Positions 17,501 to 50,840 of a DNA stretch of 64,000 nucleotides are shown here, in pieces. Numbering within the stretch: position 1 is the stretch's first letter; every line of letters starts with the position of its first letter. The translations under genes and the position numbers were made by a program. Source of the stretch: Chloroflexota bacterium (GTDB lineage: Bacteria; Chloroflexota; Anaerolineae; Anaerolineales; Anaerolineaceae); contig CP069395.1 of NCBI GenBank assembly GCA_016887485.1, positions 62,001 to 126,000 on the forward strand, given 5' to 3'. The notes under the pieces are model-generated. The model saw only the letters and a list, made by a program, of their open reading frames with translations. It was not told the DNA's origin and ran no database searches.

Positions 17501-19260
17501 GTGCTGCTATTGTTAGTGATCCCCGAGCCGATGATTGCCTGAGCGGGAATGGTATTCCGATATGTGCCGGCTGAACCGCCTGCCGTAGTTGTCACAAGGG
17601 CAGAAAATGTACAGGATGAGTTCGCACCGATGGTACCGTTTGTCAAAGTGATTGAAGAAGCGGTTACAGTGACCGTGCCGCCGCAGGTTGTGGTGACATC
17701 AGGGATCGCAGCTGGGGTAAGTGGAGAGGGTAAATCATCCGTTAGGTTAACGTTGGTAATTTCTGTGGCAGTGGGATTGGTCAACCGAATCGAAACCCGA
17801 GTCTGGCCGCCCAATTCAAAGCGCGTGGGCGAAAAATACTTATAGACATCTATGCTTTGCGGGTCCACAACAATATAGTCCGAAGCACTGTTGGTGTTGG
17901 ATACACTCTGATCATTCGTCAGTGTGTTCGTCGGAATGGAATTCCACATCGTTCCGCCGGCGGAGTTGCCCGGGGCAGTTACTGAAGCCGTAATCGTACA
18001 GGTTCCAAGCGTGACTGTTGAGCCATTGTCAACCCCTGCCGGGATTGTCCCCGAGGAGAGCGTCAGGGTTTGATCATTGTTGGAGAGTGTCAAAGAAGCC
18101 GCTGTTTCGCCGGTTTCACAGGTTGTGGAGAGTGTACCCGGGACAAAGACCAGGTCATAGGTACTCATATCATCCACCAATCCAGCATTGGTCAGGGTTT
18201 GTGTATGTGGATTCGAAATTGTCAGAGTCACTAACGAAGAATCCTCACCCGCCAGAATCGAACTGGCAGCGAAGTATTTCGATATCTGCACCCCTCTAAC
18301 AGTCAGATCATCCTGGGTAGAATTTGGATTGGTCACACCTTCATAAGTTGTCAGCTCATTCGCTGGAATGTTATTAATGTAGTAACCTGGTGTTGTCCCT
18401 TCAACATAATAGTAAGCATAGCAGGAACTATTGGCAGGGATCTCTGCATTTTGTACAGTGAAGCTGGTTCCTCCGACTTCACCAACCAAACTCACCTCGG
18501 AGCCGCAATTCGATGTATAGGGGCTCCCCGTACCGGCAACCACCAGGCCAGTTGGCAAGTTATCGGTAATGCTCACCTGATGGAGAGCATAATTGGTGTC
18601 ACGGTTATAGATTCTGATGGTGACTCGGGATTCCTGCCCAAGCCAAACACTGGTATCCGCGAAATATTTATAAACATAGGGGTCGGTCAATGTGACCACA
18701 TTCAGGGTTTCGTTCACGCCGCTGGTGTTGGCAAAATAGAGCGTCTCATCTTCAGGCGGAGTATATTGCGCAGTGAGATCGCCGGGGACTAATTCATTAT
18801 CCAGATTACCGGTCGTAAAGGAAGTCACGTTGACGGAAACCTGACAGGAGCCATTAATAGAGCCAACCTTCGCGCCGACGGTGCCGCCAGTCAGTGAGAG
18901 GGTCGTTCCCCCAGCTACTGCTGTGACCGAACCGCCACAGGTGGAAGCCGCCTGGGGACTATCCGCAATGATGATCCCTTCTTGCACCTTATCCAAAACA
19001 TCAGTGAAGGCGACGCTGCTCAAGGCATAATCATTGGGATTGTAGATATACACCGTCAGACGGGATGTACCACCCGGGGGAATGGAAACCGGCACAAATT
19101 TCTTATTAATTTCAGGGGGGATTTGAACGATTTGTTGGAGAGGAGCGCCTTCTCCATCCTCAGCCTGAACGGGCTGGATGGCAAAGATCAGTGAGAATAA
19201 GACAAGAATGATCGTGAAGCAGGCAAATTGAAACGACTTAGAAAATTTGGCAGAGTGCAT
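11551..19260 (-). CDS. Giant DUF11-type repeat adhesin with internal LPQTG motif and C-terminal sortase domain
   Basis: The ATG at 19260 is preferred because GGAG lies 9 nt upstream of it; a codon at 19275 lacks an SD. This gives 2569 residues (numbers below count from 19275). A signal peptide ending near QPVQA is followed by eight ~125-residue units of one Ig-like type (each opening with a K-x-F segment and holding TNP/TD-LP motifs). About nine DUF11-type units follow (TNTGNVTL, VTD), then a further beta domain. LPQTG lies at 2405-2409, not followed by a membrane helix. The final ~150 residues are a sortase: H2484 in NTVLTAHN, C2548 in TLMTCTDF and R2561 in NRLLVRA form the expected triad. 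The protein is exported and probably wall-associated. The sortase could act on its own LPQTG or on others; this is inference. Confidence 0.9.
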   Translation of the reverse strand: MHSAKFSKSFQFACFTIILVLFSLIFAIQPVQAEDGEGAPLQQIVQIPPEINKKFVPVSIPPGGTSRLTVYIYNPNDYALSSVAFTDVLDKVQEGIIIADSPQAASTCGGSVTAVAGGTTLSLTGGTVGAKVGSINGSCQVSVNVTSFTTGNLDNELVPGDLTAQYTPPEDETLYFANTSGVNETLNVVTLTDPYVYKYFADTSVWLGQESRVTIRIYNRDTNYALHQVSITDNLPTGLVVAGTGSPYTSNCGSEVSLVGEVGGTSFTVQNAEIPANSSCYAYYYVEGTTPGYYINNIPANELTTYEGVTNPNSTQDDLTVRGVQISKYFAASSILAGEDSSLVTLTISNPHTQTLTNAGLVDDMSTYDLVFVPGTLSTTCETGETAASLTLSNNDQTLTLSSGTIPAGVDNGSTVTLGTCTITASVTAPGNSAGGTMWNSIPTNTLTNDQSVSNTNSASDYIVVDPQSIDVYKYFSPTRFELGGQTRVSIRLTNPTATEITNVNLTDDLPSPLTPAAIPDVTTTCGGTVTVTASSITLTNGTIGANSSCTFSALVTTTAGGSAGTYRNTIPAQAIIGSGITNNSSTYRDVYVYPVGLGATLSKTFEDSNQPQPTGTAIRIRLQLKAPEDKNLTGVTLTDNLPFGMVISSPMTYSLTNCGAEASVTGVAGDSSFSLIDGEISAGVTCYVYVYVTANDPGTYTNAISPIDLTNDQNQTFPSSVSDNMRFSDYLVSKTFAPDIITWGGRSVLTITLTNEDERPMTGVWLQDRLATMGTTEFVVADEPNASTTCGGALTADPGSSTIVLNGGSIPGRVGSVDGSCTITVTIKANSNANTSDNTISTTDSYGTVSGAASPSYPRYSATDRLYIQDMSIEMVKKFDPSSVSGGSSSRLTVLLINPNDVPIPEISFTDVMPAGMKITMPTNIDTSTCGGEVVIAPDRQSFYYSGGYLAAGRRCTISLNATIRVNGNLINTIPAGAVSSFIGVSNEDAASSTLTNLPGVSVRKYFTPNRILAESDEYSVLTIELTNTSNAAVHDLGLVDTFPTGVVIVDAPLDPPTNTCGGTFTANVGESQVTLSGGYLSGVLDPDDPQPEDCTMTVAVKADDRATYRNVIPEGSITSSDANVTNPDPAEDTLEVYGTPDMQIVKSVTSTGPYNEDDVITYELEVTNTGDMKLNDVQVTDAGEGAVLGACNPVLGSTLNPGDVMICSATHTVTAADIAAGEYINTANADSDRTDPVSDEETVPLSGGPAISIKKILTSVGPFEVDDTITFSIKVNNIGTVNLNNVLVTEETAGVVIDSCTPVQGSTLAAGEMMTCAASYVVTQDDLDLGTFTNVASADADEVEPVSDDVSLQLAQYPSIAVYKFETSTGVYAVGDTVTFDIVTQNTGNITLTNVTVDDTGTELPLGPCTLNEDPTIIPLPAELAVGDILYCEAYHSVTQADIDNGDYTNTAIVSNDQTPPETGTAVVQMVQIPLVELTKVGALHQDTIAPNDRVDAGDTISYIFTITNTGNVTLHDLVITDEVAGVQIIGGSIATLAPGATDSTTITGLYSLSQADVDAGTFENNATVSAKDPNNATISDSDTDSKSFTAVPSISLTKTGTLVEDEVSPTDRTDAGDKITYEFTVENTGNVTLTGVMITDDDATILGGPIDLGPGESDTLTFTGSYTLLQADIDAGSFTNEATVTGTAPDTTEVTDFDTDTQTITREPDIALVKSGSVKMDTIAPTDQANVGDSIEYTFTVTNTGNVTLTNISVTDALVTVAGNPIASLEPGESDSTTITGSLPLTQAMIDSGSVYNTANVSGTTPTNGTVTDTDDTTVSITPDPSLALTKTGTLHDDVVAPSGQVNVGDTITYIFTITNTGNVTLHELTVEDLGVTLANSPVTINLAPGQANSTITGTYTLTQADIDSGTYANTAHAKALTTDDEEVTDSDTEEIELSSDPMISLEKTGTIVDDVVLPAGMVNAGDQISYQFTVENTGNVTLVNVEVTDADPDVVLTGCTIGTLEVGEVDSTSCTGVYAVTQDDINAGTFTNYADVMAEDPDENPLTDSDEDTQDIPEGGLLGVAKTVSSSPVLISTGIWQFTYEIEIANMGNVALTNLQITDNLSAVFPLPHVFSVIDVSSTDFDVNPLYNGISGPGGDTNLLASGLNGLDVGESGTLTVTVELVPVNAGPFLNSAVGTGETQRGTSVTDDSQNGVDPDPDADYDPTNNDVPTPLEFDGNLFNPPKGIKTYNNAGQPKLGWSIVWINDSNIVPIQTRMSDPIPSGSTFLNDGVSSGYDLPTGDLPEGSTASGVSCTADPLSVLTTTTYCYYEGPTLEYPRGRIIWEGTLGPDLGASNAEQAINEMVIDYAVRVSANAGSVRNNAVLGVDLDGDGGITAVEEETVTVSRTWTAEELPQTGFAPGYLTIMPSQPDSLAYSTTGMAIQISKLGVSTYVTTVPFRDGAWDVTWLGNQVGYLEGSAYPTWSGNTVLTAHNTTAYNEPGLFADLGDLSYGDQIVIQAYGQTYVYEVRESLVVSQSNLAAAFKEQRLDWVTLMTCTDFSPAKGEYINRLLVRAVLVSVGPQ

Positions 19261-37625: not shown

Positions 37626-38603
37626 TCACTCAAAATTCAATGCGTTTTGGAGAATCGTCTGGATCGCCGGGGTATTGGGTAATAAAACCGACGCGCCATC
37701 CGAGGTAGTCCAGTTCGTCACCTGATTTGGGCCAATGGTGTAATGATGGATTTTGTCCGCGCTGAATCCGATCCCTAATCGGCTCAGGATCAATAGATCA
37801 CCAGGAGTGATGTTGCTCTGGACATTTTCTCCATAAATGTTCATCAAAACCGGCAGCTTGAACAGCCCAAGCGGACTCACCACTTTTTTCATCACCGCCT
37901 GAACCACTTCCTGCGTTCGGCGCATTCGATCAAAGTCGCTGGAGTTATAGCGCGCCCGGGCATACCACAACGCCCAGTCACTATCCAGCCTGACGGTCCC
38001 CGGCCCCACTTCACACCAGCGATCCGCTTCCAGCGACCCATCACAGGCATCATCTGTTAAAACATCCGTTTCGATTTTTATGCCACCCAGGGCATCGATC
38101 ACTTCCAGAAATCCGGCCATATCGATCATGGCATAATCGGTGGGATAGATGCCAAAATTGGTTTGGAGGGTATCCGCCAACAAGGGAAAGCCGCCAACTT
38201 GCATCACCGTGTTGATCCGCTGTTCGTAATATCCGGGAATGGTCACCCACAGATCGCGCGGGAAGGAAACCAAACTGACCTGCCCGCTGATGGTATCCAC
38301 CGCCGCGAGCATGATCACATCCGTCCGGAAACCGGATTGCGGCCGGTAGTCAGAACCGAGGATCACGAACAGCTTGGTGGTGACCGGAACTTGCAGATCC
38401 ACCACCCCCCCATAAGGCGCGGGTTTCGGTCCGACCGTTTCAGCGACCGAAGCGGTTTGCTGATCGATCAACTGGAAGAACGGGATCTGCGAACGGAAGA
38501 CCGTCGCTGCAGCCTGGATCATCAGAATGGCAACACAAAATATGATCACTGAAAATATTAGAAAGATAACCTGACAGAAAGTCCGGTTTTTGTTTTTACG
38601 CAT
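37626..38603 (-). CDS. LytR-CpsA-Psr family wall-polymer ligase
   Basis: The 325-residue protein has one N-terminal membrane helix (VIFLIFSVIIFCVAILMI) and an extracytoplasmic LCP domain. Family landmarks are LFVILGSDYRPQSGFRTDVI, SLVSFPRDLWVTIPGY, INTVMQVGG, and the arginine-rich ALWYARARYNSSDFDRMRR, which binds the polyprenyl pyrophosphate. LCP enzymes attach glycopolymers to peptidoglycan, fitting a monoderm envelope. GGAGATG is the ribosome site. It lies just outside the partition module. Confidence 0.92.
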   Translation of the reverse strand: MRKNKNRTFCQVIFLIFSVIIFCVAILMIQAAATVFRSQIPFFQLIDQQTASVAETVGPKPAPYGGVVDLQVPVTTKLFVILGSDYRPQSGFRTDVIMLAAVDTISGQVSLVSFPRDLWVTIPGYYEQRINTVMQVGGFPLLADTLQTNFGIYPTDYAMIDMAGFLEVIDALGGIKIETDVLTDDACDGSLEADRWCEVGPGTVRLDSDWALWYARARYNSSDFDRMRRTQEVVQAVMKKVVSPLGLFKLPVLMNIYGENVQSNITPGDLLILSRLGIGFSADKIHHYTIGPNQVTNWTTSDGASVLLPNTPAIQTILQNALNFE

Positions 38604-39088
38604 AGATTCATCTCCAAGCGCATAATGGTTGATTTGACGCTTTTTTATAAGCCGTAGTTATACCTTAATTCGCTATTTTTACTAGATAATACCTATACGA
38701 AATAGTAGTCAGTAGAATAAGTTAGTTCTATTGACATAGACAAACGTAAACCAAGATAAACCATCACCAATATTTTTCCTCAAATGGATTTATTAACCAT
38801 TCTTTGCAGATAAACGCCCATCCGTGACTTTCAAATTTGTTGTGGAACAGTCTGCCTTCGCCCAATTTCAGCGGTCAATTCAACCCCTTCTTAGAATGAA
38901 TTTAAGGGCCCAGAAGGCAAATAATTAAGTACCCACCCAATCCCCCCCATTCAATATAAGGTTTGAATACGAGGCGTTTATTCTAGTGTATGTATATTAC
39001 TTGATTATCTATATGTATAGCAATTGTATATATTCATTTTCATATTAATATACATTCTCTTTACACATTTTCAGAATCTTCCCATTTC
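38604..39088. other. Gene-free, AT-rich stretch between LCP gene and partition module
   Basis: No gene is visible. The right part, ~38979-39060, is very AT-rich (runs such as TATATGTATAG and TTGTATATATTC) and could melt easily. At 38694-38703 there is an exact copy of the decamer TATACGAAAT found at three intergenic places in this window. The leftmost part should carry the LCP promoter, but I cannot fix it with confidence. Confidence 0.4.
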
Positions 39089-39649
39089 TCACACTTTCCC
39101 CATGTCCTCCGGGTACAAAGTGGCAATTTGCTGCACCGGAACAGGGTCAAGAACCAGATCACCAGCCTTGAAACGCGCCACTCCCCGCTCAAATAAATGA
39201 CGCGCCAGCTCTCCCTGGGTGACGCCCATGGCCTGACTTTTTTCCAGGACCGCCTGCACTACTTCACGCGGCACACCATAATAGGAACGCGGCTGCTGAG
39301 ATTTCTTGGAGCGTTTCCGGCGGGTGCGGGATGCGTTCTGTTTCTCATCGGGATAAAGCGTGTAACCACCAGGCACGAAAGAGGGTGCTACTTCTTCCTT
39401 TCCTGTGCCTATCCGCGCCAGACCATTTTCCAAGAAGTAACGGGCCAGCTCGCCCGGCGCGATGCCGAGATCCGCGGCAATGGATTTTAGGGATTCATGC
39501 AACTTTAATGGGATGCCGCGAAATGTCGCGATGTGAACCTTGGTTGCTTTTTTTGAAGGCACTTTCTGCTCCTCACCCCCACCCTTCTGAGTCGGCATCG
39601 TAGCACTTTGGTCTTTTTTTTCCAGGTTTTCGATCTCGTCCTTAACCAC
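39089..39649 (-). CDS. Tandem ribbon-helix-helix DNA-binding protein
   Basis: This 186-residue protein contains two copies of a ~60-residue unit: 38-102 and 121-182. Each has a strand (FRGIP / YYGVP), a helix, the turn LGIAPGELAR / MGVTQGELAR, a second helix (YFLENGLAR / HLFERGVAR) and a tail ending TLYPDE / TLYPED. This is the strand-helix-helix pattern of ribbon-helix-helix repressors, duplicated so that one chain could mimic the usual dimer. A basic linker (~105-120, RTRRKRSKK) joins them. The start is GTG at 39649 with GAGG upstream. Its promoter overlaps a parS-like palindrome. It lies downstream of parB on the same strand. A role as centromere-binding or copy-control repressor is inference. 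Confidence 0.75.
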   Translation of the reverse strand: MVKDEIENLEKKDQSATMPTQKGGGEEQKVPSKKATKVHIATFRGIPLKLHESLKSIAADLGIAPGELARYFLENGLARIGTGKEEVAPSFVPGGYTLYPDEKQNASRTRRKRSKKSQQPRSYYGVPREVVQAVLEKSQAMGVTQGELARHLFERGVARFKAGDLVLDPVPVQQIATLYPEDMGKV

Positions 39650-39696
39650 CAGTAATCCTCACTCCCTAATCCATTCATCACACAACTTATAAAATT

Positions 39697-39722
39697 ATTA
39701 TAACCGAACTCGATCACACATT
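39697..39722 (-). promoter_or_regulatory. Promoter of the tandem-RHH gene abutting a parS-like site
   Basis: On the minus strand TATAAT lies at 39702-39697, ~50 bp before the GTG start. There is no good -35 hexamer at the right distance. Instead the palindrome at 39723-39738 covers the -37 to -22 face relative to the -10 box, so a bound protein would directly affect this promoter. Confidence 0.5.
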
Positions 39723-39738
39723 TTTGCCACGTGGCAAA
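39723..39738. promoter_or_regulatory. parS-like palindrome, copy 1
   Basis: A perfect 16-bp palindrome TTTGCCACGTGGCAAA. Its CACGTG centre is that of parS, but the flanks (GCC..GGC instead of TTTC..GAAA) differ from the usual chromosomal site. Confidence 0.8.
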
Positions 39739-39829
39739 TCTTGTGAAAATCACAAATCCTTGAGCAGACTTATCCAACTCAAACATCGAAAACTCCGCAT
39801 TGAAGTTCCAGGTAAAAGTCAATGATAAA

Positions 39830-39845
39830 TTTGACACGTGACAAA
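39830..39845. promoter_or_regulatory. parS-like palindrome, copy 2 (variant)
   Basis: TTTGACACGTGACAAA differs from the other copies by one change in each half and is imperfect as a palindrome at one pair. Its centre lies 107 bp from copy 1. Confidence 0.65.
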
Positions 39846-39926
39846 TCTATCGGACGAAGCGCATACTCAACAACATACTTTTATGGCTCTCGAAAAGTCC
39901 AACCAGTTCGTGGGAAAACAAATAAG

Positions 39927-39969
39927 ACCAAGCGTTATTATATTTGCCACGTGGCAAATATCGCTTGGT
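39927..39969. promoter_or_regulatory. parS-like palindrome, copy 3, inside a larger dyad
   Basis: The 20-bp perfect palindrome TATTTGCCACGTGGCAAATA spans 39941-39960. It is framed by an outer inverted repeat, ACCAAGCG (39927-39934) and CGCTTGGT (39962-39969), set asymmetrically. It lies in the gene-free stretch 39650-40048. Confidence 0.8.
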
Positions 39970-39990
39970 AATTTCCGAACGGAAGGAAAT

Positions 39991-40017
39991 AAAAAAGACC
40001 CGCTTTTTTGCGGGTCT
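39991..40017 (-). terminator. Intrinsic terminator of the parAB operon
   Basis: AGACCCGC (39996-40003) and GCGGGTCT (40010-40017) form a perfect stem. On the minus strand a T-run follows, 32 bp after the parB stop and between two parS-like sites. Confidence 0.85.
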
Positions 40018-40022
40018 CCATT

Positions 40023-40038
40023 TTTGCCACGTGGCAAA
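40023..40038. promoter_or_regulatory. parS-like palindrome, copy 4
   Basis: A perfect TTTGCCACGTGGCAAA sits 10 bp from the end of parB, between the gene and its terminator. Confidence 0.8.
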
Positions 40039-40048
40039 TCTTATGCGT

Positions 40049-41218
40049 TTAGCGATTCTTATTACGGATATTGATCCGCTTGATCAGATCCTCCAGAACC
40101 GAGACAACTTCCTTGACCTCGTCGGGTTTCATTGAGCCGACAATCTCGGTAGCAGCTTTATCCAAGAATTTCGGATCGCTCGCCATTTCAGTTTTCATCT
40201 TGGTAACAGAGCGGTTGAAGGAGCTTGCCAGTTTAATAACAGGCGGCTTTGGTGCACGGGGTTTGCGCTTTTTGGCAGGCGTTTCATCCAGCGCGTCCTC
40301 GTCCAGCAGCCGCTGAAATTCACGAACGCTGGGCGGGTCTTCCTGTTTGAGATAATATTTGACCGCTTTTTTCTGTTCGTCCGCGGACATAGCCATCAGC
40401 TGACGCAGAATGCCCTCGGGGATATCGGCCTGGTCCGCCAGGTATTGCAGTTCAATCGGCAGTTCCAATAATTTCCGGAAACGGTAATACTGATACTGGC
40501 TGATACCCAGGGTTTCCTCAATTAATTGGGCGGTCTCTGCTGTGGTTTTGACATCAAACATCTTCTTGAAGTAGATATCCTCAGGCTCATCAGCCACAGG
40601 GAAAATATCGGCTTCTTCTAAAATAATCCGAGCAATTGCTCGAGCCTTGCCGATGGCGGTCAGGGGTTTATGGGTAATATTTTCCAGGATCTGTTTGCGT
40701 ACGGTCGGATCCGAATCAACCAATGCCAACACCTGAGGTTCGTCTTCCTCGCCGGACATAACGGACCGGATGACGGTGGCCCAGAAACGACGTTCACCGG
40801 TCAGAATTAAAAATATCTGTTGGCCGGCCTTGTCTTTGATAAAGCTGCCGGTGATCGGTTTAATTTGGCCATCCTGATCCAGAGAGCGGCCCAGCTGCAT
40901 CAATTCATCCAGTTCGTTACGAACCAAATTGTCTTTACGGGCCAGCTCCAACCATTTATTGGCTGTCTCACGCCAATCCAATTCATGATTAAAGAAAGGC
41001 TCTCGCAGCTGCCGCGGCAGTACATGGCGGGCCTGATAGCGGTCTGGCCGAACGGCGGAAATCTGAATGGAGTAAGTAGACTGACGGTTAACTTGAATTT
41101 TTGAAGCGGCGCGATGAGTTTGCTTTGGTTGAGCCAGCGCTTCACTTTCCTCGCCGGTGTCGGTCTGAGTGAAAACGTTCGTGAGGTCTACGCCTGAAAA
41201 TGTCGGTCGCTTTGCCAT
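40049..41218 (-). CDS. parB: ParB-family partition protein (CTPase/DNA-binding)
   Basis: The 389-residue protein has the ParB/Spo0J core: an N-terminal region starting SIQISAVRPDRYQARHVL (~50), the nucleotide-binding arginine box TGERRFWA (140-147, usually GERRxRA), and the following box ILENITHKPLTAIGKARA (177-194). A helix-turn-helix follows around 235-255 (EETLGISQYQYYRFRKLLEL). A lysine-rich linker (KKRKPRAPK) precedes a C-terminal dimerisation-type helix. ParB loads at parS and spreads as a CTP-dependent clamp. The changed arginine box and the insertion at ~75-110 set it apart from chromosomal ParB. It is second in the parAB operon, 29 bp after parA. Confidence 0.9.
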   Translation of the reverse strand: MAKRPTFSGVDLTNVFTQTDTGEESEALAQPKQTHRAASKIQVNRQSTYSIQISAVRPDRYQARHVLPRQLREPFFNHELDWRETANKWLELARKDNLVRNELDELMQLGRSLDQDGQIKPITGSFIKDKAGQQIFLILTGERRFWATVIRSVMSGEEDEPQVLALVDSDPTVRKQILENITHKPLTAIGKARAIARIILEEADIFPVADEPEDIYFKKMFDVKTTAETAQLIEETLGISQYQYYRFRKLLELPIELQYLADQADIPEGILRQLMAMSADEQKKAVKYYLKQEDPPSVREFQRLLDEDALDETPAKKRKPRAPKPPVIKLASSFNRSVTKMKTEMASDPKFLDKAATEIVGSMKPDEVKEVVSVLEDLIKRINIRNKNR

Positions 41219-41247
41219 GATTCACTTCTTTCTCTGTTGCTTCAATA

Positions 41248-42081
41248 TCAGTTATCAATCCGCTCAACGACAGACCGGACAACTTTTAGGAACTGCCGAT
41301 AGGGCTGTGATTGGGGCGTGGTATAGGAAAAAATATCTGAGCCAGACATGTTGGCATCTTCGACTTCGACGAGGTCTTTGATATAGGGCAGAACCAGATC
41401 GGGATAGCCCTGGTTGATCTCTTCGATGGCCTCCATGTAACGCTTGCGGGCGACACGGACCCGGGAAGGCACAACGCCAATCACCTGAAGCTCAGGATTG
41501 AAATCTCGCTTGACTCGATTGATCGTGGCAAAAATCGAAGAAAGACCGATGATTGAAAGTGGGTCCGGTTCAATCGGTACCAACGTATACTGGCTGGCGA
41601 TCAGCGATGCCACCGGGATGATGTTCAGGGAGGGGGGATTGTCAATAATGATGTGGCTGTAATAATCCAGGATCGGCTCCAGGAACCGGGCTAGCTGTGT
41701 TTCGCTTTGTGGCAAATTATGCAGCAGGAAGGGCAGCTCGATCATCTTCTCATGATTGGTTTTGAAGATATGGACTTTATGCTCCGAGTCACGTGGGATC
41801 TTGGACTCGGTGATCAGGTTGTCGTAATCGCCAAACCCATCCAGCAGCGCCTCCGGGAAGGAGTCTTCCACCGTGATGATCGGCATGTAGGACGAGCTGT
41901 CATGTGGACCGCCGCAGGCGATCATGGTCGCATTAAGTTGGTCATCAAGATCCAGCAGGAGGACCGGCTTGGGGTCCTTGTGTTTGCGCTCTTCATTGAT
42001 TGAGAGGCCAGCGGCGAGGTTCACGCTGACCGTGGTCTTACCAACGCCCCCTTTATGGTTCAGCACCGAGATGATTGCCAT
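41248..42081 (-). CDS. parA: ParA/Soj-type partition ATPase
   Basis: The 277-residue protein begins directly with the deviant Walker A motif of ParA/MinD ATPases (KGGVGKTT, 10-17) and has no N-terminal DNA-binding domain, as in type Ib plasmid or chromosomal ParA. Further motifs are VLLLDLDDQLNAT (~41-53) and HIIIDNPPSLNIIP (~140). It should bind nucleoid DNA as an ATP dimer and move ParB-parS complexes. The start has GGAG ~10 nt upstream. The promoter at 42121-42149 is a good match. It is divergent from the AAA+ ATPase gene. Confidence 0.94.
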   Translation of the reverse strand: MAIISVLNHKGGVGKTTVSVNLAAGLSINEERKHKDPKPVLLLDLDDQLNATMIACGGPHDSSSYMPIITVEDSFPEALLDGFGDYDNLITESKIPRDSEHKVHIFKTNHEKMIELPFLLHNLPQSETQLARFLEPILDYYSHIIIDNPPSLNIIPVASLIASQYTLVPIEPDPLSIIGLSSIFATINRVKRDFNPELQVIGVVPSRVRVARKRYMEAIEEINQGYPDLVLPYIKDLVEVEDANMSGSDIFSYTTPQSQPYRQFLKVVRSVVERIDN

Positions 42082-42120
42082 GTTTTTTATTCTCCAATTT
42101 AATAGACTCAGGTTACCCCT

Positions 42121-42149
42121 ATATTAGCATAATTATTTAATTTTCTCAA
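42121..42149 (-). promoter_or_regulatory. Promoter of parAB
   Basis: On the minus strand TTGAGA (42149-42144), a 17-bp spacer ending in TGC, and TAATAT (42126-42121) form a sigma-70 promoter with an extended -10, ~40 bp before the parA start. Confidence 0.7.
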
Positions 42150-42157
42150 GTTTTTTA

Positions 42158-42202
42158 TGCTGATTTCGTCGAAATAACCCCATTTTAGTGCTGATTTTGA
42201 CG
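42158..42202. repeat. Two 14-bp direct repeats between divergent promoters
   Basis: TGCTGATTTCGTCG (42158-42171) and TGCTGATTTTGACG (42189-42202) match at 12 of 14 positions and are spaced by 31 bp, about three helical turns. They sit between the parA promoter and the AAA+ gene promoter and look like an operator for one regulator. Confidence 0.6.
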
Positions 42203-42204
42203 TA

Positions 42205-42233
42205 TTGACATAGTCTACGGGATATGTTAGATT
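42205..42233 (+). promoter_or_regulatory. Promoter of the AAA+ ATPase gene, probably leaderless
   Basis: A perfect TTGACA (42205-42210), 17-bp spacer and TAGATT (42228-42233). The ATG at 42240 lies only seven bases after the -10 box, where transcription should begin, and no SD is visible. Confidence 0.7.
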
Positions 42234-42239
42234 CTTGGT

Positions 42240-43055
42240 ATGAGCGGTACCCTAACCTTCACTGACCTTAATAAGACTGCCGGTATCAACGACAACCCCT
42301 TTCTGCCGTATCCTGACCATCGCTTCTTTGTCCCTGTGATCCATGAACAAAATGAGGCGATCCGGATTATGAACAACTTCCTGGTAAGCGATGCGGAGAA
42401 CGGGTTGATCGTTTTCACCGTCCCGACCGGTTGGGGCAAATCCACCATTTCGAAGCAGATCGTCAACAGCTTCACGCCCGGGTTTCAGCGCGGCGCGGAC
42501 CGAGGGGTCTATATGGACGGTAATCTACTGCTCAATAACCGCCAATTCCTGATTGACCTCCTCGATCTCCTGAGCATTGAGGGTCACCGGTCGAATGCAC
42601 AACGTCTAGAAAATTTTTACAACTATGTTGACCATTTGTCAAGCGGTCTGTTACTGCTGATCGATAACGAGCCCACGGATTTCGAATTGATCGGCCCAGC
42701 GCTATATGATTTCCTGGAATGGTCCAAAGACCATGGCAATAAAATCCGGATCGGTCTTTTCGCCCGCGACCTGATCGAACCGGCAGAATATCTCGGAAAG
42801 TTACAGGAGCACCTGGCGCATTATCAGCGCTTCACCGGAGCCACAGTGCCCGAACTGGTGCGCCTGTTAGTCGGCCGCTGTAAGATGGCCGGCATCCAGG
42901 ATCCGATTCACGAACTCTTCAGCGAGTCGGCCTGGATTGAATTCGCTGAAAGAGGACAGCCATCCATCCCAGCGGTGATGCGCCATGCCAATGCCGCCTT
43001 TGAAAAGTGGGTGTCCGACAAGAAAGAGAGCATGAGCCACGAGTTCAACTTCTAG
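42240..43055 (+). CDS. ExeA/TniB-like AAA+ ATPase
   Basis: The 271-residue protein matches the ExeA-type AAA+ pattern: NPFLPYPDHRFFVPVIHEQNEA near the N-terminus (19-40), Walker A VPTGWGKST (61-69), Walker B LLLLIDNE (137-144), a sensor-like IRIGLFARD, and a C-terminal helical lid with QPSIPAVMRHANAAF. This family includes transposition and secretion ATPases and is related to origin-loading ATPases (Cdc6/DnaC type). No transposase is near. Because it is divergent from parAB and followed by a probable initiator gene, a helicase-loader or partition accessory role is plausible but inferred. The transcript is probably leaderless. A parS-like site follows the stop by 5 bp. Confidence 0.75.
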   Translation: MSGTLTFTDLNKTAGINDNPFLPYPDHRFFVPVIHEQNEAIRIMNNFLVSDAENGLIVFTVPTGWGKSTISKQIVNSFTPGFQRGADRGVYMDGNLLLNNRQFLIDLLDLLSIEGHRSNAQRLENFYNYVDHLSSGLLLLIDNEPTDFELIGPALYDFLEWSKDHGNKIRIGLFARDLIEPAEYLGKLQEHLAHYQRFTGATVPELVRLLVGRCKMAGIQDPIHELFSESAWIEFAERGQPSIPAVMRHANAAFEKWVSDKKESMSHEFNF

Positions 43056-43060
43056 ATTCT

Positions 43061-43074
43061 TGCCACGTGGCAAA
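43061..43074. promoter_or_regulatory. parS-like palindrome, copy 5
   Basis: TTGCCACGTGGCAA (14 bp perfect, extended to AAAT on the right) lies 5 bp after the AAA+ gene, ~3 kb from the other four copies, so the sites bracket the parAB-ATPase block. Confidence 0.75.
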
Positions 43075-43198
43075 TATTCTCTCCATGCCGTTTCTGTACG
43101 ACCTCCCAACAGCAGGGGAGGGGTAGATGTGCAGGACTATAGGAAAGGAACAGTAATGACGAGGGGTTGATCCGACAGAAAAGGTCGGTTTAAAGCGA

Positions 43199-43220
43199 AA
43201 AGCCCGCTGCAACGGGCTTT
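43199..43220 (+). terminator. Hairpin, probable terminator after the AAA+ gene
   Basis: AAAGCCCG (43199-43206) pairs with CGGGCTTT (43213-43220) over a 6-nt loop. The T-run after it is short, so it is a weaker terminator candidate. The rest of 43075-43415 holds an exact TATACGAAAT decamer (minus strand, 43351-43360) and no gene. Confidence 0.55.
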
Positions 43221-43415
43221 CCCTGGATTTCCCTACGTTTACTAGTGGTTGTAGGAGATGGGTGTGTTATTAACTTCACACAAACAAATTGTACATTATG
43301 AAACCCCGGCTGTCAAGTATCAGGCCTTCTATTGGGGAAGATTCTACGCAATTTCGTATAGATATCTTTCCCTCGAGACCGGATATGCATCAGCAGGACC
43401 AGGAAGGGGGCATCC

Positions 43416-45635
43416 GTGACGCTAACCCTCCTGGACTATGAAGTCTTCGATTCCCTCAAAACGAAACTGGCTGAAAAAGATCCTAAGCACGCGGCATCCT
43501 TCTCGGAACGGGTGTTAGGCTATGGATTCACCACGCAGGATGATCCCTTGTCGGCTTTCGTTCTCATTTGCGGTCCCCATTTTCGAGATTCTCTGACTGA
43601 GTCACTCTCCGCTGCTCTGCCGGAATCCCTCCTGACAGTCCAAGAAACTACGATCAAAGTCCTCATCAGTGACTCGACCAACCAGCATGACCTGCAGCAC
43701 AACCTCCAGATCACAGAGAGCATCGATTCCACCCCTCAAGCCAATTCCGACAACATTGAGGACTGGGTGCAAATCTCACTTGGTCAGACCCTTCGACAGG
43801 CTGTCCTTCAGGAGAATCGGAAGATCATCCTGCCCGCTTATCTATTGCGTTACACACCCTTCACTTCACCCAACCTGATACTGTTGCGTGCCGCCCTCAG
43901 TCAGATCCATTTCCTGCACCAATCCAGAGCTCAGGCCGAGGATGAATTCGAGCAGCGCACCGTAACAGCCCGGATGAATGAGATTCAGCGCTGGAGCAGT
44001 TTCTCGCGCACATCCATTTACCGCCTGCTGCATGAAGACCCGCGCAGCGCCTGGCTGATCAGGGTGGAAAACCGGGGGGCCTACCAAAACAATCAGGGCC
44101 AGCAGATCTCGCTGCCCAACCAGTATCTGCTTGAGCCGCTCAAACTCACGCCCGGTGATGCCACCGATTTGGAGAATTACCTCCGCGAGCATCAAGCTGA
44201 ATGGCAGGATCTGGATGACTGCTTGCTTGACCTTCTTAGAACGGACCGCCGCCAAATGCTGGCCTATCCTTACCGTACACCACAGCCTGATGACCGCACT
44301 GAGCCTGCCTCGGTTCTGGAAATCCTGCAAAGTATGTTCAATGGATTTGAACTCACCGCTTCCCGGCTGACCCTGATTGACAAGCTACGAGATCACCTGA
44401 TGGGTGACGATTTCGTGGCCGCCCCCTGGTATCTACTGCGGCGTTTATTACCCGTCTATGGTGCATCCATCGTTGTAGCCTGGCTGATGTGCCAGCCGCT
44501 GCTCTTCAAGCACAATGGCATTGAGCGGGACAATTTCTGGCTGCCGGGTGGGGCGGAATCATTGGTAGCATGGACCAACGATCGGTCATTTGGTAAGTAT
44601 TTTCCTAAAGCCAACGCCAAAGGGCGGGGGCGCCCCGCTTCGGGCAAAGGAACTACAGACACCGAGTGGCGGAAGAATAAACAGGAATTGTTAACCGATT
44701 TCTTCCTGCGGACACAAACCCGCCGCGATGGGGAAGGGATCACGCAATGGCAGATCAAGGTCTCTGAAATGCCTGTGCTGCCCGAGGATGCCCGCCTGAT
44801 GTCATCGGTCTATACCCGGCTGGCGGAACTGATCCGCTATGACAGGTTGGATCAACTCATAACGCTTTTGGATAAGGTAGATCCGAGTCAAAATCCCCAA
44901 CCGAGTAAAACTGTTCTCGATCGGATATACCGTTTACCCGTAGTTGATGAGACAACCGAGGTCCTAACTTATCTAGTCAATAGTTTAATTTCCGATTTTG
45001 GAACACCGGTAAAGGCTGATATTTCCAAATTTGAAACACCGGTTGACCGATTAATTTCCCTTTTTGAAACACCGGAAAGTGGATTAATTTCCAAAAATGC
45101 AACACCGGTGATAGAAATAATTTCCGATCTTGAAACCCATTTAAAGATTCTAGAGAGCATTAAAGATTCAATTAGGATCATTAAAAATTCCAATACTCCA
45201 CCAGATTCCAACATTCCGCAAGAGCATTCTGACCTTTCGGAGGGGGAGGATTGGTATTTTAAAAGCATTCTTGAATCTGTATCAGAGCAATTCAGGCAAG
45301 AAATCCTGAATGACAGCGCAAAATCAAGGGTATTCAAAGCCTGGTTAGTGCATAATGCGCTGAACAGTCGGGTGAATCAGCCGCTCAACCTGGCTTTGAA
45401 CAAGGCCATGCAAAATGCTGCACCACCGGACACGGCTGCAATGCGCCTGGCTGATCTGGCGCTGCCGGATTTAGTACGCTTGCTGGAGAATAGCACTAGT
45501 CCTGCCGGGGAATGGGGATACCAGGTTGATGAGGTCAATCAACAGCGGGCGCGCGATCTGGAATTACTGCTGGTCGGTGAAGCGTCGAACATGCGAGCCG
45601 TGTTGATCCAGCGGCTTTTGGATTTGATCAGTTGA
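43416..45635 (+). CDS. Large DNA-binding protein, probable replication initiator, with internal iteron-like repeats
   Basis: The GTG at 43416 follows AGGAAGGGGG. The 739-residue protein has no family I can name with certainty. Residues ~181-240 look like a winged helix: helices with WSSFSRTSIYRLLHED, then a two-strand wing around RVENRGAYQNNQGQQISLP. Residues 403-407 are an AT-hook core (GRGRP) between basic stretches, close to a second possible winged helix (~415-455). From I525 onward come five 11-residue repeats (ISKFETPVDRL and similar), encoded by 33-bp DNA repeats. The C-terminus is helical. Size, DNA-binding features, repeats within the gene and the adjoining parABS suggest a plasmid-type Rep protein. 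This is inference; a large transcriptional regulator is the alternative. Confidence 0.6.
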   Translation: MTLTLLDYEVFDSLKTKLAEKDPKHAASFSERVLGYGFTTQDDPLSAFVLICGPHFRDSLTESLSAALPESLLTVQETTIKVLISDSTNQHDLQHNLQITESIDSTPQANSDNIEDWVQISLGQTLRQAVLQENRKIILPAYLLRYTPFTSPNLILLRAALSQIHFLHQSRAQAEDEFEQRTVTARMNEIQRWSSFSRTSIYRLLHEDPRSAWLIRVENRGAYQNNQGQQISLPNQYLLEPLKLTPGDATDLENYLREHQAEWQDLDDCLLDLLRTDRRQMLAYPYRTPQPDDRTEPASVLEILQSMFNGFELTASRLTLIDKLRDHLMGDDFVAAPWYLLRRLLPVYGASIVVAWLMCQPLLFKHNGIERDNFWLPGGAESLVAWTNDRSFGKYFPKANAKGRGRPASGKGTTDTEWRKNKQELLTDFFLRTQTRRDGEGITQWQIKVSEMPVLPEDARLMSSVYTRLAELIRYDRLDQLITLLDKVDPSQNPQPSKTVLDRIYRLPVVDETTEVLTYLVNSLISDFGTPVKADISKFETPVDRLISLFETPESGLISKNATPVIEIISDLETHLKILESIKDSIRIIKNSNTPPDSNIPQEHSDLSEGEDWYFKSILESVSEQFRQEILNDSAKSRVFKAWLVHNALNSRVNQPLNLALNKAMQNAAPPDTAAMRLADLALPDLVRLLENSTSPAGEWGYQVDEVNQQRARDLELLLVGEASNMRAVLIQRLLDLIS
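44988..45152 (+). repeat. Five tandem 33-bp repeats (iteron-like) within the Rep-like gene
   Basis: Units start at 44988, 45021, 45054, 45087 and 45120. Each begins ATTTCC, followed by a TTTTG/TTTGA-type stretch and, in the first four, ACACCGG. The third base of codons is conserved with the rest, so the DNA itself may be under selection. The period is close to three helical turns. The fifth unit is degenerate in its second half. Confidence 0.8.
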
Positions 45636-45651: not shown

Positions 45652-45688
45652 AAAACACAGGATTATGTTTGGCATAATCCTGTGTTTT
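45652..45688. terminator. Bidirectional intrinsic terminator
   Basis: A perfect 16-bp stem, AAAACACAGGATTATG (45652-45667) and its complement (45673-45688), with a 5-nt loop lies between the convergent Rep-like and sulfatase-fold genes and closes the module. Confidence 0.9.
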
Positions 45689-47338: not shown

Positions 47339-47899
47339 CTAACTGCGCAGACAGATGACCAAAACGTGATCAATGATCATGTGGAAATCTTCCACCATTT
47401 CGATTGAATCGGAAGGGATCACAATGGCATGGTCTACGACTTTGGCCAGCTCACCGCCATGAAAACCGGTCAGGCCAAGTGTGGTTGCACCGAGTTCATT
47501 GGCTGTCTCAACCGCTTTGAGCACATTGGGGGAATTCCCGCTGCCGCTGATGGCGATCAGGACATCCCCCGGTTTCATCAGAGTGATGATTGGTTCGGCA
47601 AAAACCCGATCATAGCCTTCGTCGTTGGCATAGGCGGTCAGGCTGGGGACGTTATCGCCCAGGCCAATCACTTTGAGCCGCTTCTGGCCTGGCATGCGGG
47701 TGTTCTTGCTGAAGTCCGCAGCCATATGAGCAGCTGTAGCCCAGCTGCCGCCGTTGCCACAGGTGAAGACGGTGTTTCCATTTTCGCGGGCTTTCTCAAC
47801 CGCTGCCAGGATGGTTTCCAGGTCCGCGACTGGGAAGTTATCAATGACTGCTTTGAGGGAAAGTAAGTATTTTTCAATAGTATGGGTATGCTTTGACAT
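47339..47899 (-). CDS. GmhA-like sugar-phosphate isomerase (SIS domain)
   Basis: The 186-residue protein is a single SIS domain of the sedoheptulose-7-phosphate isomerase type: FTCGNGGSWATAAHMAADFS (~45-64) is the phosphate-binding loop. LIAISGSGNSPNVLKAVETA (~115) and the late histidine in VEDFHMIIDHVLV follow. GmhA converts sedoheptulose 7-phosphate to a heptose 7-phosphate. The related DiaA and other SIS proteins have other roles. It is last in a four-gene operon with an HldE-like kinase and a HAD phosphatase, which favours a sugar-phosphate role. Confidence 0.82.
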   Translation of the reverse strand: MSKHTHTIEKYLLSLKAVIDNFPVADLETILAAVEKARENGNTVFTCGNGGSWATAAHMAADFSKNTRMPGQKRLKVIGLGDNVPSLTAYANDEGYDRVFAEPIITLMKPGDVLIAISGSGNSPNVLKAVETANELGATTLGLTGFHGGELAKVVDHAIVIPSDSIEMVEDFHMIIDHVLVICLRS

Positions 47900-47901
47900 T
47901 T

Positions 47902-48954
47902 CTATTCCTGTTCAAGTTGTTTTTGATACTGATAATGACGGTTAATTAAATCATCCTGGGTGGCGATTCCAGTAGTGCCAATCTGCTGGATCGTGATTGA
48001 GCCAACCAGGTTGCCGATAAAGGCGGCTTCCCGGGATGTGGCACCGGCACACAGGGCCAGGCCAATTCCGGCCAACACGGAGTCACCAGCGCCGACGATA
48101 TCTATCGGTCCTTCGATCCGGACGCCCGGATGATGGAAGGACTGACCTTCCGCGGTACCGGTGATTCCATCGGCACCCATTGTAACAAATATTGGGCGAT
48201 TGTTCTTCTCCCATAGAATTTTGGTGCAGCGTTCAACTGTTTGAGGGTCATCGCAATCTGCAAAGGAGTCAATCCCGAGCGCGTTGACGGCTTTGATGGC
48301 CTCAGAAATGTTCATCTTCAGTGAGACCCCCTCATAATTGGCCGCGAAATGGCGGGAATCGATCATCACGGGTTTTTCGGGGTGCAGGGCGGAGGCTTTG
48401 GTCAATGCCTTGCGAACGGTGGGTGAGAGAGTGCCGTAGCCATCCTTTTGGACCTGCTCAACCACCAAAATGCCATCGTAGGCCTCAATCGCATTGAGGA
48501 CATTTTCCGCCAGAGCCTGATTCAGCGATTCCGGGTTGGGTGAGCGGTTGATGAGGTCCATTCGGTTCAATTCAATATTGGCATTATCCAATTCACGCAT
48601 CATTGGCTTGGTGTAGGTGGGAGTGAAACGGTCGGGTGTCTCTAGGAAATAATCCAGGCTGACCTGACCAGCTTTAAGGGCTTGCCGGAGAGTGAAGCCG
48701 TTGCCATCCTGCCCGGTATAGCCTATAGCGGCTGCCTGCGCGCCCAACGCCACCAGGTTATTGGTGACCACACCTGCCGCCCCTGGCTGGCCGCGCCAAT
48801 CCACTGCCTGGAAGGCCTCTTTATGAGTCTCAATTGAAAATTCCGAGAGGGATCGCTCCAATTGGATATAGAGATCTAGGAAAAAATCGCCCAAAACGGC
48901 CACTTTACAGCCGGAGAAATTCGAGAGGATGGCCTCAAAGCGTTTGGTTTCCAT
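47902..48954 (-). CDS. HldE/RfaE-like PfkB sugar kinase
   Basis: The 350-residue protein resembles the kinase domain of HldE (RfaE). It has the N-terminal strand KVAVLGDFFLDLYI (~17), the substrate-lid region RGQPGAAGVVTNNLVALGA (~54), and the catalytic DIVGAGDSVLAGI (~286) with the base aspartate in GAGD. No nucleotidyltransferase domain is attached. It starts 3 bp after the preceding stop and its SD (AGAAGGGG) lies inside that gene, so it is translationally linked. Its substrate is probably a heptose phosphate or related sugar; this is inference from context. Confidence 0.82.
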   Translation of the reverse strand: METKRFEAILSNFSGCKVAVLGDFFLDLYIQLERSLSEFSIETHKEAFQAVDWRGQPGAAGVVTNNLVALGAQAAAIGYTGQDGNGFTLRQALKAGQVSLDYFLETPDRFTPTYTKPMMRELDNANIELNRMDLINRSPNPESLNQALAENVLNAIEAYDGILVVEQVQKDGYGTLSPTVRKALTKASALHPEKPVMIDSRHFAANYEGVSLKMNISEAIKAVNALGIDSFADCDDPQTVERCTKILWEKNNRPIFVTMGADGITGTAEGQSFHHPGVRIEGPIDIVGAGDSVLAGIGLALCAGATSREAAFIGNLVGSITIQQIGTTGIATQDDLINRHYQYQKQLEQE

Positions 48955-48957
48955 AGC

Positions 48958-49938
48958 TTATGCCCCTTCTTTTTCAGCTTCAAGTATCAACCGGTGCAAA
49001 TTGGTGATCGTGGAGCGGTGGTCACCACGGATATAGTGACTCTCGCCGCCATCCGCCACCGTGCGCACCAGAACGGTCTTATAGGGCCGGAAATAATAAA
49101 TGGCGTTGGATTTGGAGGCTTCTGCGTGGGGGTCATCGCCCAAATCAAGCATATCGAAAACGGCAGTGGTGAAATGTTTGATCACCTGTCCGTTCTGGTG
49201 GGCGACGTTACGGGCCATGGAGAGGGCTTTAAGGTATACCTCCGGTCCCATCACAGCCGTGCCGACATTCAGCATCACGCCGTCTTCCAGGTTCTCAACG
49301 AAATGAGCCAGGGTCAGGAAGTCATGGTATGAGGCTTCGCCAACCGCTGCACCGTCGAAATTTGGGTGTTCGTGGACAATGTCCTGGCCGATGCCGACAT
49401 GCACGGTCAGTGGAATCCCGAGGCGATACCCAGCTGCGAACAGACTGGAATCCCGAAAGGGAAATTCCATTGGGCTTTCAAAAATCATTTTGCCAATTGA
49501 TTCGCCCAGGCCATAGCCGTTTTCTTTCGCATAGATAGCGGCATCATTGACCCGGCCGGTCTCATTCCACAGCCCAAACTGGCCCTCCTGAATGTACTTC
49601 GCCACAGATTCGGTTGTTTGGCCGATCATGGCGAATTCCATATCATGAATGGTGCAAGCGCCGTTAGTCCCGATCAGGGAGATATAGCCGCGTTCCATCA
49701 GGTCAATCAGAAAGCGGTTGACCCCACTGCGGATCACATGAGCGCCGATCATCAGCATCACGGTGGCGCCACGTTTCTTGGCGGCCACGATGCGTTCAGC
49801 CAGAATTTTCAATCGGGGGTTGTTATAAGCCGGAATGGGGTCGGTCAGATCGAGGATCACATCCCGGGTCAGGTCATGTTCACGTTCGGCCAGGGGTTTG
49901 AGGTGCAGCCGGCTGCGATCAAAGGTGGGATAAGGCAT
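48958..49938 (-). CDS. Deoxyhypusine-synthase-like protein of unknown function
   Basis: The 326-residue protein has no membrane segment. It contains glycine-rich strand-turn elements (VMLMIGAHVIRSGVNRFL, ISLIGTNGACTIHDMEFAM, TVHVGIGQDIVHEHP) that recall the NAD-binding fold of deoxyhypusine synthase, but this resemblance is weak and the host needs no hypusine. GGAGGA precedes the ATG. Three-base gaps tie it to the HAD phosphatase before it and the kinase after it. A role in the same sugar pathway is the natural guess, but no reaction can be assigned. Confidence 0.55.
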   Translation of the reverse strand: MPYPTFDRSRLHLKPLAEREHDLTRDVILDLTDPIPAYNNPRLKILAERIVAAKKRGATVMLMIGAHVIRSGVNRFLIDLMERGYISLIGTNGACTIHDMEFAMIGQTTESVAKYIQEGQFGLWNETGRVNDAAIYAKENGYGLGESIGKMIFESPMEFPFRDSSLFAAGYRLGIPLTVHVGIGQDIVHEHPNFDGAAVGEASYHDFLTLAHFVENLEDGVMLNVGTAVMGPEVYLKALSMARNVAHQNGQVIKHFTTAVFDMLDLGDDPHAEASKSNAIYYFRPYKTVLVRTVADGGESHYIRGDHRSTITNLHRLILEAEKEGA

Positions 49939-49941
49939 AGA

Positions 49942-50769
49942 TTATTCCTCCTCCATCAGATAGGACCAAAGGTCGGAAAACGGGGTGAAATCCGGAAGGA
50001 TCACATCCGCACCGGAGGCGATCAAGCGGTCGCGTTTCCAGTCATCCACCCCGGAACGCCCGGCTTCATCGGTAGCCAGGCCAATGGCGATGCCGCCGAC
50101 CGCTTTGGTATCTTCAATTTCAACATAGCCATCCCCAAAAGCGACCAGTTCCGGCCCGCTAAGATTATTTTCTCGGATGATCTTTTGAATCACCATCCGT
50201 TTGGAGAAATTCAAATAATCATCCTGAGCGCCGTAGATGCCCTTGAAATAGGGCTTGAGGCCCAGGAGGTCAGTTTCATCGAATACGTACTTCTCATCCG
50301 TCCCAGAGGCCAGAAAACAGGTGATACCGGCTTCTGCGATCCTTTTCAGAGCCTCCAGAGCGCCGGGAACGGTCATTTCTTCGGGGGTCAGAGTGCCATT
50401 TCGCAGTCCTTCCAGCCGGTGAATGATGCGATCCATCAGAAGGTCATGGTAGCGGTTTTTATATTCAAGCGGTTCCAGAGGGGTGCCGCCGCGTTTTTGG
50501 ATCTCTTCCACCAGGCGGATCATCTGGTAAATGGTCTGTTTACCGGTCGTATTGGCAACATAGGTCCGCACGACCTGTTCCACAACGGCCTGGCTTTCAT
50601 GGTCAGGGGTTTCCATCAGGATCTCGACCATCATTGGGATCATGATCTGCTGCCAGCCCTCGCGGATCAGTGAAATGGTGCCATCAAAGTCGAAAATGGC
50701 GAATTGGATGTTGCCCCGGATAAAATCGGGATTGATAATTTCAATATTAGGATTTTTCAATGCGGTCAT
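49942..50769 (-). CDS. HAD-superfamily phosphatase
   Basis: I take the ATG at 50769. A longer frame start at 50838 would run through the terminator hairpin of the upstream gene. The 275-residue protein carries all HAD motifs: AIFDFDGTISL (motif I, ~23), ITCFLASGTDEKY (II), a lysine before motif IV, and VAFGDGYVEIEDTKAVGG (IV), like phosphoglycolate phosphatases. It leads the four-gene operon. With the SIS isomerase and PfkB kinase it mirrors the enzyme classes of heptose activation (isomerase, kinase, phosphatase). Confidence 0.8.
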   Translation of the reverse strand: MTALKNPNIEIINPDFIRGNIQFAIFDFDGTISLIREGWQQIMIPMMVEILMETPDHESQAVVEQVVRTYVANTTGKQTIYQMIRLVEEIQKRGGTPLEPLEYKNRYHDLLMDRIIHRLEGLRNGTLTPEEMTVPGALEALKRIAEAGITCFLASGTDEKYVFDETDLLGLKPYFKGIYGAQDDYLNFSKRMVIQKIIRENNLSGPELVAFGDGYVEIEDTKAVGGIAIGLATDEAGRSGVDDWKRDRLIASGADVILPDFTPFSDLWSYLMEEE

Positions 50770-50811
50770 TTTGCTTCGTGTTTTTCCGTGAATAAATTGG
50801 GTTAAAAATTC

Positions 50812-50840
50812 AAATGGAGAGCCTCTTTGGCTCTCCATTT
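50812..50840 (-). terminator. Intrinsic terminator after the Gfo/Idh gene
   Basis: AAATGGAGAGCC (50812-50823) and GGCTCTCCATTT (50829-50840) form a perfect 12-bp stem 14 bp after the stop codon, with a T-rich tail on the minus strand. It separates the ABC operon from the HAD-led operon. Confidence 0.85.

Follow-up and report, generated by a model that had tools for sequence, protein, structure and literature searches.

Secondary replicons that rely on plasmid-type origins are well known in bacteria, as in the case of Vibrio chromosome 2 and of those found in Burkholderiaceae and Rhizobiales. How second chromosomes originate is an old question. According to a 2018 review, all the secondary chromosomes studied fit the plasmid hypothesis and there is no evidence of schism in bacteria, while in Haloferax volcanii the chromosome split in the laboratory after an orc deletion (PMC6090056). 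A 2026 study suspects a schism in Embleya and calls its proof very difficult (PMC13152386). Chromid-like replicons have been proposed in Ktedonobacteria, another class of the phylum Chloroflexota (PMC13289182), and we found no report of a secondary replicon in Anaerolineaceae among the open literature searched. Here we analyse a plasmid-type replication and partition module from an Anaerolineaceae bacterium whose genome (G000) is formed by two contigs, C1 of 2.72 Mb and C2 of 179,736 bp, 2.9 Mb in total. The module comprises genes for a tandem ribbon-helix-helix (RHH) protein, ParB, ParA, an AAA+ ATPase and a 739-aa putative replication initiator (Rep), and it lies within a stretch of 64 kb, hereafter the window, which belongs entirely to C2 (CP069395.1, positions 62,001–126,000).

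We think that the module provides C2 with its origin and its partition locus, and that C2 would be an independent circular secondary replicon with the terminus block of sister species as its body; we hold this function, read together with a history of fission, to be moderately probable. The underlying event, which we consider reasonably likely, would be a natural chromosome fission: the terminus region of one Anaerolineaceae chromosome became a replicon driven by a plasmid origin, the chromosome was sealed, and the process was reversed in one sister species, where the initiator is decaying, so that one genus would hold three states. As in the schism hypothesis and in H. volcanii, a chromosome would have divided into two replicons with the second one using another origin. 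Unlike the laboratory split, this one would be natural and bacterial, and it comes with unsplit and re-fused sister species. Because the three states have junctions that can be read at base level, both the direction and the mechanism of the change become testable.

C2 resembles chromids in several respects. It carries plasmid-type replication and partition genes (ParA, ParB, parS-like sites and a plasmid-like Rep, which would confer autonomous replication), and its base composition is close to that of the chromosome, with a GC content of 0.507 versus 0.509 for C1 and tetranucleotide distances within the range of C1. Moreover, it bears ordinary housekeeping genes, such as pepF, deoB, a threonine-synthase-like gene, recD2 and rpiB, and genes that are chromosomal in other species (about 50 in one block of the genomes G010 and G013, including pepF, deoB and recD2). 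It differs from chromids in that its body is colinear with one contiguous block of a sister chromosome, in the sealing of the chromosome at the corresponding site, and in its size of only 180 kb.

C2 and C1 as probable separate replicons

The two ends of each contig appear to join. At the end-to-start join of C2 one transposase gene picks up again after a slip of 1 base, and relatives show a gene order that continues across the join; a caspase-like gene picks up in the same way across the ends of C1. Therefore, C2 and C1 both appear to be circular, each closing on itself separately. The gene cut by the end of C2 looks like a REP-associated tyrosine transposase. The gene dnaA and an ordinary chromosomal parAB are carried by C1, and a tRNA search of C2 gave none.

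The cumulative GC skew of C2 is V-shaped, with the minimum at C2:106,513 (window position 44,513), inside the gene of the 739-aa protein, and the maximum at 18,286, about 91 kb away on a circle of 179.7 kb and, hence, near half of it. After detrending, the minimum is at window position 45,238. On C1, the skew flips at ~2.1–2.2 Mb and ~0.76–0.85 Mb, about half the length of C1 apart. Taken together, the separate contig, the joining ends, the gene order of relatives and the shape of the skew indicate that the module is part of a closed secondary replicon, which we infer to replicate autonomously.

The initial annotation had recognized a plasmid-type replication and partition module that could suffice for a replicon and was origin-like, which agrees well with our results. 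It had suggested that this might be an integrated or domesticated plasmid lying in the chromosome, or a second origin of a single chromosome, given the chromosome-type genes on both sides. Related loci with the order ParA-RHH-Rep do lie inside chromosomes, for instance in a complete Leptolinea genome. Nevertheless, C2 is a separate and apparently closed contig whose skew minimum falls at the module, and C1 appears to close without including C2; thus, we find this interpretation highly improbable, as the module seems to serve a separate circle. The neighbours are indeed derived from the chromosome, as they had appeared to be, because the body of the replicon is itself a block of chromosome; what is not supported is the chromosomal location.

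A chromosomal terminus block and the module at its join

About 50 genes of C2 have their reciprocal best matches in one block of contig G010:C12 and in one block of G013:C3, a contig of 1.8 Mb. The order of the block is almost fully kept, running from C2:~125–133 kb, through the ends of C2, to C2:100.6 kb; the few matches out of order are paralogous genes of transporter type. In G010 and G013, the block is flanked on one side by orthologues of C1:700–713.5 kb, and on the other by a small-RNA-like element and orthologues of C1:714–720 kb. The genes C1:712,072 and C1:714,048, which represent these two flanks, are adjacent to each other on the C1 of the present species. The same boundaries can be followed in further genomes. 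The LCP (LytR-CpsA-Psr) gene at one end of the block adjoins the glycerate-kinase-like orthologue of C1:712072 in G006, G008, G010, G011, G012 and G014, while G013 has no such orthologue and shows the next C1 orthologue near its LCP gene. At the other end, the sugar genes (SIS, kinase, 326-aa protein and HAD) keep their order beside the small-RNA/C1:714048 flank in the unsplit genomes G012 and G014. The block is the terminus region of the chromosome in G010 and G013, since the skew peak of both, which marks the replication terminus, lies within it.

Judged from these gene orders, the module occupies precisely the point at which the two block ends come together. Its components and immediate surroundings are the following, in window positions:

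37626–38603, minus strand: LCP family gene (TIGR00350, E 8e-25), one end of the chromosome-derived block
38604–39088: AT-rich junction between the LCP block end and the RHH gene of the plasmid module, with motif ATTTCGTATAGGTATT at 38689–38703 on the minus strand
39089–39649, minus strand: tandem RHH-like protein, whose orthologue adjoins ParB in G001
39723–39738: parS-like palindrome 1
39830–39845: parS-like palindrome 2 (TTTGACACGTGACAAA)
39943–39958: parS-like palindrome 3
40023–40038: parS-like palindrome 4; an identical 16-mer flanks parB in G001
40049–41218, minus strand: ParB (ParB_N 4e-4; TIGR00180 2e-6; phrog_4715, ParB-like, 4e-8)
41248–42081, minus strand: ParA (AAA_31, E 1e-34; phrog_164, E 2e-41)
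42240–43055, plus strand: AAA+ ATPase; a low-confidence model resembles initiator-clade AAA+ proteins (ORC/Cdc6)
43059–43074: parS-like palindrome 5
43190–43310, minus strand: small-RNA-like element, other end of the chromosome-derived block
43352–43366, plus strand: second copy of the motif, TTTCGTATAGNTAT, just upstream of rep
43416–45635, plus strand: putative 739-aa replication initiator Rep (DnaA domain I family-profile match, structural matches, skew minimum at 44513)
44986–45146, plus strand: five 33-bp in-frame direct repeats inside rep, candidate iterons/oriV
45652–45688: inverted repeat with a 16-bp stem, probable shared terminator of convergent genes
47339–50838, minus strand: SIS isomerase, sugar kinase, 326-aa protein and HAD genes, where the chromosome-derived block continues

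The five open reading frames were confirmed in position, and the five parS-like palindromes, the iteron-like repeats (the five 33-bp direct repeats inside the 739-aa gene), the features at both ends and the 16-bp-stem inverted repeat were all recovered where the initial annotation had put them. A comparison of the five-gene neighbourhood in relatives reveals linkage in G001 and G029.

The partition part has all the elements of a ParABS system: a ParA ATPase, a ParB-like centromere-binding protein and clustered palindromic parS sites, to which ParB is predicted to bind. The palindrome TTTGCCACGTGGCAAA has 5 copies, all of them inside 39,723–43,075; allowing up to 1 mismatch, the rest of the 2.9-Mb genome has none. 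In shuffled controls, matches at up to 3 mismatches occur 0.28 times per window. The more distant module of G029 has a different palindrome, TGTGCCCATGGGCACA, with 3 copies in 12 kb (one of them carrying a mismatch), which is what co-evolution of the site with ParB would produce. No match to ParB was obtained by tblastn in the plasmid collection. The tandem-RHH protein is a probable accessory centromere-binding protein or repressor; in six other genomes, related genes form a pair with ParA and have a relative of the 739-aa protein as neighbour. The RHH, AAA+ and 739-aa proteins gave no family match above the curated cut-off, and no DnaA-box cluster was found near the module. The motif TTTCGTATAGNTAT, which resembles a XerC half-site, has only two copies on C2, inverted with respect to each other (38689 minus, 43352 plus) and flanking most of the module. 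Further copies lie upstream of the rep remnant of G009 and, one per genome, in the stretches retrieved from G010 and G013.

The genome is known here only as two assembled contigs and, therefore, C1 and C2 could in principle be a single chromosome from which the assembler popped out a loop. However, three separate assemblies (G000, G001 and G009) show the sealed chromosomal junction and two of them (G000 and G001) the LCP-RHH-ParB-ParA junction, the junctions tested share no repeat longer than 11 bp, and the module is located exactly at the join. An artefact of this sort seems to us very hard to sustain.

Two side observations concern the sealed site. In all three split genomes, a 78-aa gene with a LuxR-type helix-turn-helix is present at the junction (C1:713469–713705, minus strand), and it was not found in the unsplit stretches examined. 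The slope of the GC skew breaks at the junction (715 kb) and is then nearly flat up to ~770 kb, as if the stretch C1:715–770 kb had changed its replication direction.

Split, unsplit and apparently re-fused relatives

Besides G000, the split state can be read from the fragmentary assembly of G001, which has the sealed junction and LCP-RHH-ParB-ParA, with rep on another contig. G009, the closest sister, has a different arrangement. Its LCP end, after ~1.7 kb, follows orthologues of C1:729–738 kb near the trigger-factor gene (L124, G009:C12), and its rep is a remnant formed by a few conserved pieces with large internal deletions, beside the syntenic sugar genes that follow rep on C2 (L085 9119–9766, G009:C79). 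Thus, the replicon of G009 seems to have rejoined the chromosome at a new site close to the terminus, while its rep decays, and the integration suggested by the initial annotation, which is not supported for the present genome, is seen in this sister instead. Natural fusions between chromosomes and chromids have been described in V. cholerae, S. meliloti and Cupriavidus necator KK10, by recombination between IS, dif or rRNA operons (PMC8729776). G009 is like them in that the replicon goes back into the chromosome, and unlike them in the visible decay of the initiator and in that no repeat was identified.

An unrooted tree separates the three sealed genomes from the seven unsplit ones with full support. 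A search across genomes found relatives of Rep in 16 out of 61, and most of the family members examined lack the module; because of this, one fission followed by one re-fusion is the shortest history, and the one favoured by parsimony.

The steps that we envisage are as follows. A plasmid of the ParB-ParA/AAA-Rep kind would have come to one edge of the terminus block in an ancestor, and block and module would then have been cut out as a circle, with sealing of the chromosome. With the terminus in the middle of the block and the new origin at the join, the ori-ter polarity of the circle would have been right from the start. In the present replicon, the winged helix of Rep might bind the repeats within rep, and its DnaA-domain-I-like N-terminus might recruit the replisome, while the AAA+ protein may help in helicase loading; replication would proceed both ways towards the old terminus near C2:18 kb. 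ParB on the five parS sites and ParA would segregate the circle, with the RHH protein possibly regulating or assisting. In G009, the replicon would have returned to the chromosome, followed by the decay of Rep. This scheme suggests a rule for a viable split: when the terminus is excised and a new origin is placed at the join, both circles keep their ori-ter polarity.

Several observations weigh against this proposal. The right arm of C2 has no leading-strand gene bias (37/87). The best scores of a search for canonical dif sites on C2, C1 and the blocks of relatives were no better than those of shuffled controls, and the repeats shared by the junctions reach at most 11 bp (C1 seal versus intergenic regions of the module), with no repeat or recombination site that explains excision. 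The model of Rep has a mean pLDDT of 62 and no significant Foldseek match. As regards direction, rooting was attempted with one, two and nine genes: several rooted trees put G000 and G009 at the base with supports of 62–92, and in others the three split genomes form a weakly supported group that is sister to the unsplit ones (AU test for such a group, p 0.36). The adjacency of the glycerate kinase gene in outgroups and 200-kb stretches of G085 and G068 both showed a synteny too eroded to indicate direction, and fission as the first event is favoured rather than demonstrated.

Since the rooted trees differ in where they place the root of the genus and outgroup synteny gives no direction, we keep an older fusion as the principal rival. 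According to it, the ancestor of the genus already had C2 as a plasmid-born chromid, which the ancestor of the seven unsplit species fused near the terminus with loss of the module, and G009 performed a fusion independently. This agrees with the rooted trees that set the split lineages at the base (supports of 92 and 89, and 63 in another one), with the known chromosome-chromid fusions (PMC8729776) and with G009 itself, which indicates that such a fusion occurs, in which the circle is opened at the module and rep goes into decay. However, it needs one more event if the family ancestor had no replicon, as the proportion of genomes with Rep relatives would suggest, and modules with ParB-ParA facing AAA-Rep were found only in G000 and G029, partly in G001 and probably in G017. 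Furthermore, the block carries ordinary housekeeping genes, and a search for module remnants in the unsplit blocks examined gave none, unlike in G009; its only matches were weak ones, to P-loop proteins of other kinds and to paralogues of the sulfatase-like gene that flanks the module. In our opinion, an older fusion is possible but rather unlikely, and we prefer the fission followed by one re-fusion.

The putative initiator family and other conserved elements

The 739-residue protein had been proposed to be a DNA-binding initiator. The N-terminus of the family profile matches the DnaA domain I structures 4tps and 8btg (E 1e-10), and Pfam DnaA_N was found in 6 of the 10 family members, although the protein of the window, taken by itself, gives no hit to this Pfam model; for its residues 8–84, the predicted order of helices and strands agrees with DnaA domain I with low confidence. 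For residues 121–263, the three best structural matches are domains of plasmid initiators (4pql, 4pt7 and 5kbj), with Z values of 6.4–7.4, and RctB of Vibrio chromosome 2 is found lower among the matches (Z 5.0 and 4.5). Matches with Z values in this range can arise by chance. The structure predicted for the 271-residue AAA+ protein is likewise a low-confidence model that resembles initiator-clade ATPases; a related protein of G029 has hits to phrogs of the DnaC-like helicase-loader and MuB-like kinds.

Plasmids of the RepA_N type (pSK41) have origin repeats inside the rep gene (PMC5703833). The putative initiator studied here shares with them a probable winged-helix DNA-binding domain and candidate origin repeats inside the gene (the five 33-bp repeats, which Rep would bind), and differs in the lack of a Pfam sequence match, in its length (739 aa versus ~320) and in its N-terminal DnaA-domain-I-like region, instead of which the pSK41 initiator has a C-terminal DnaG-binding domain. 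The RepA_N domain is not among the Pfam matches of Rep or of its nine relatives, though the three best structural matches given above are initiators of this type. No Pfam match to an AAA+ domain or to a DnaA-box binding domain, as present in DnaA, was obtained inside Rep. A tblastn search of Rep in plasmid and phage collections found no relative. We infer a family in which a DnaA domain I is combined with a winged helix like that of plasmid initiators, and it may represent a new type of initiator.

The loci of Rep relatives can be grouped into two types. Type I is the facing arrangement described above. Type II consists of ParA-RHH-Rep plus three further conserved genes, and is found in several large contigs, including a complete Leptolinea chromosome. 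The type II loci are probably integrative elements, several of them lying inside large contigs, perhaps near tRNA genes. Their gene order, gene X-ParA-tandem RHH-small ORF-Rep-three conserved genes, is seen in many Anaerolineaceae (L073–L077, L079 and L220–L235). A type II Rep was also found on a contig labelled Micrarchaeota (L233), which is likely misbinned Anaerolineae DNA.

The small-RNA-like element between the AAA+ gene and rep has a conserved TTGACA/TGTAAAAT promoter, a CUCCUAC...GUAGG hairpin and a strong terminator. Each genome in which it was found has a single copy. On C2 here this copy is the neighbour of rep, whereas six unsplit sisters have it next to the orthologue of C1:714048; in several sisters it directly precedes this orthologue and is in line with it. 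Its identity is 82–96% among species whose proteins are ~60% identical (L087–L092). No Rfam match at gathering scores was obtained in the window, this element included. Its position opposite a possible AAA-Rep transcript made it a candidate for a plasmid antisense copy-control RNA. This role was rejected, as the element is kept by six chromosomes in which no Rep was found, and for that reason it probably has another function.

Outside the window, the peroxiredoxin gene at C2:137231–137938 (minus strand) is broken in all genomes by a conserved in-frame TGA (DFTFV-TGA-PTE), followed by a conserved AACAGCG-GT-CGCTGTT hairpin, and it probably encodes a selenocysteine peroxiredoxin.

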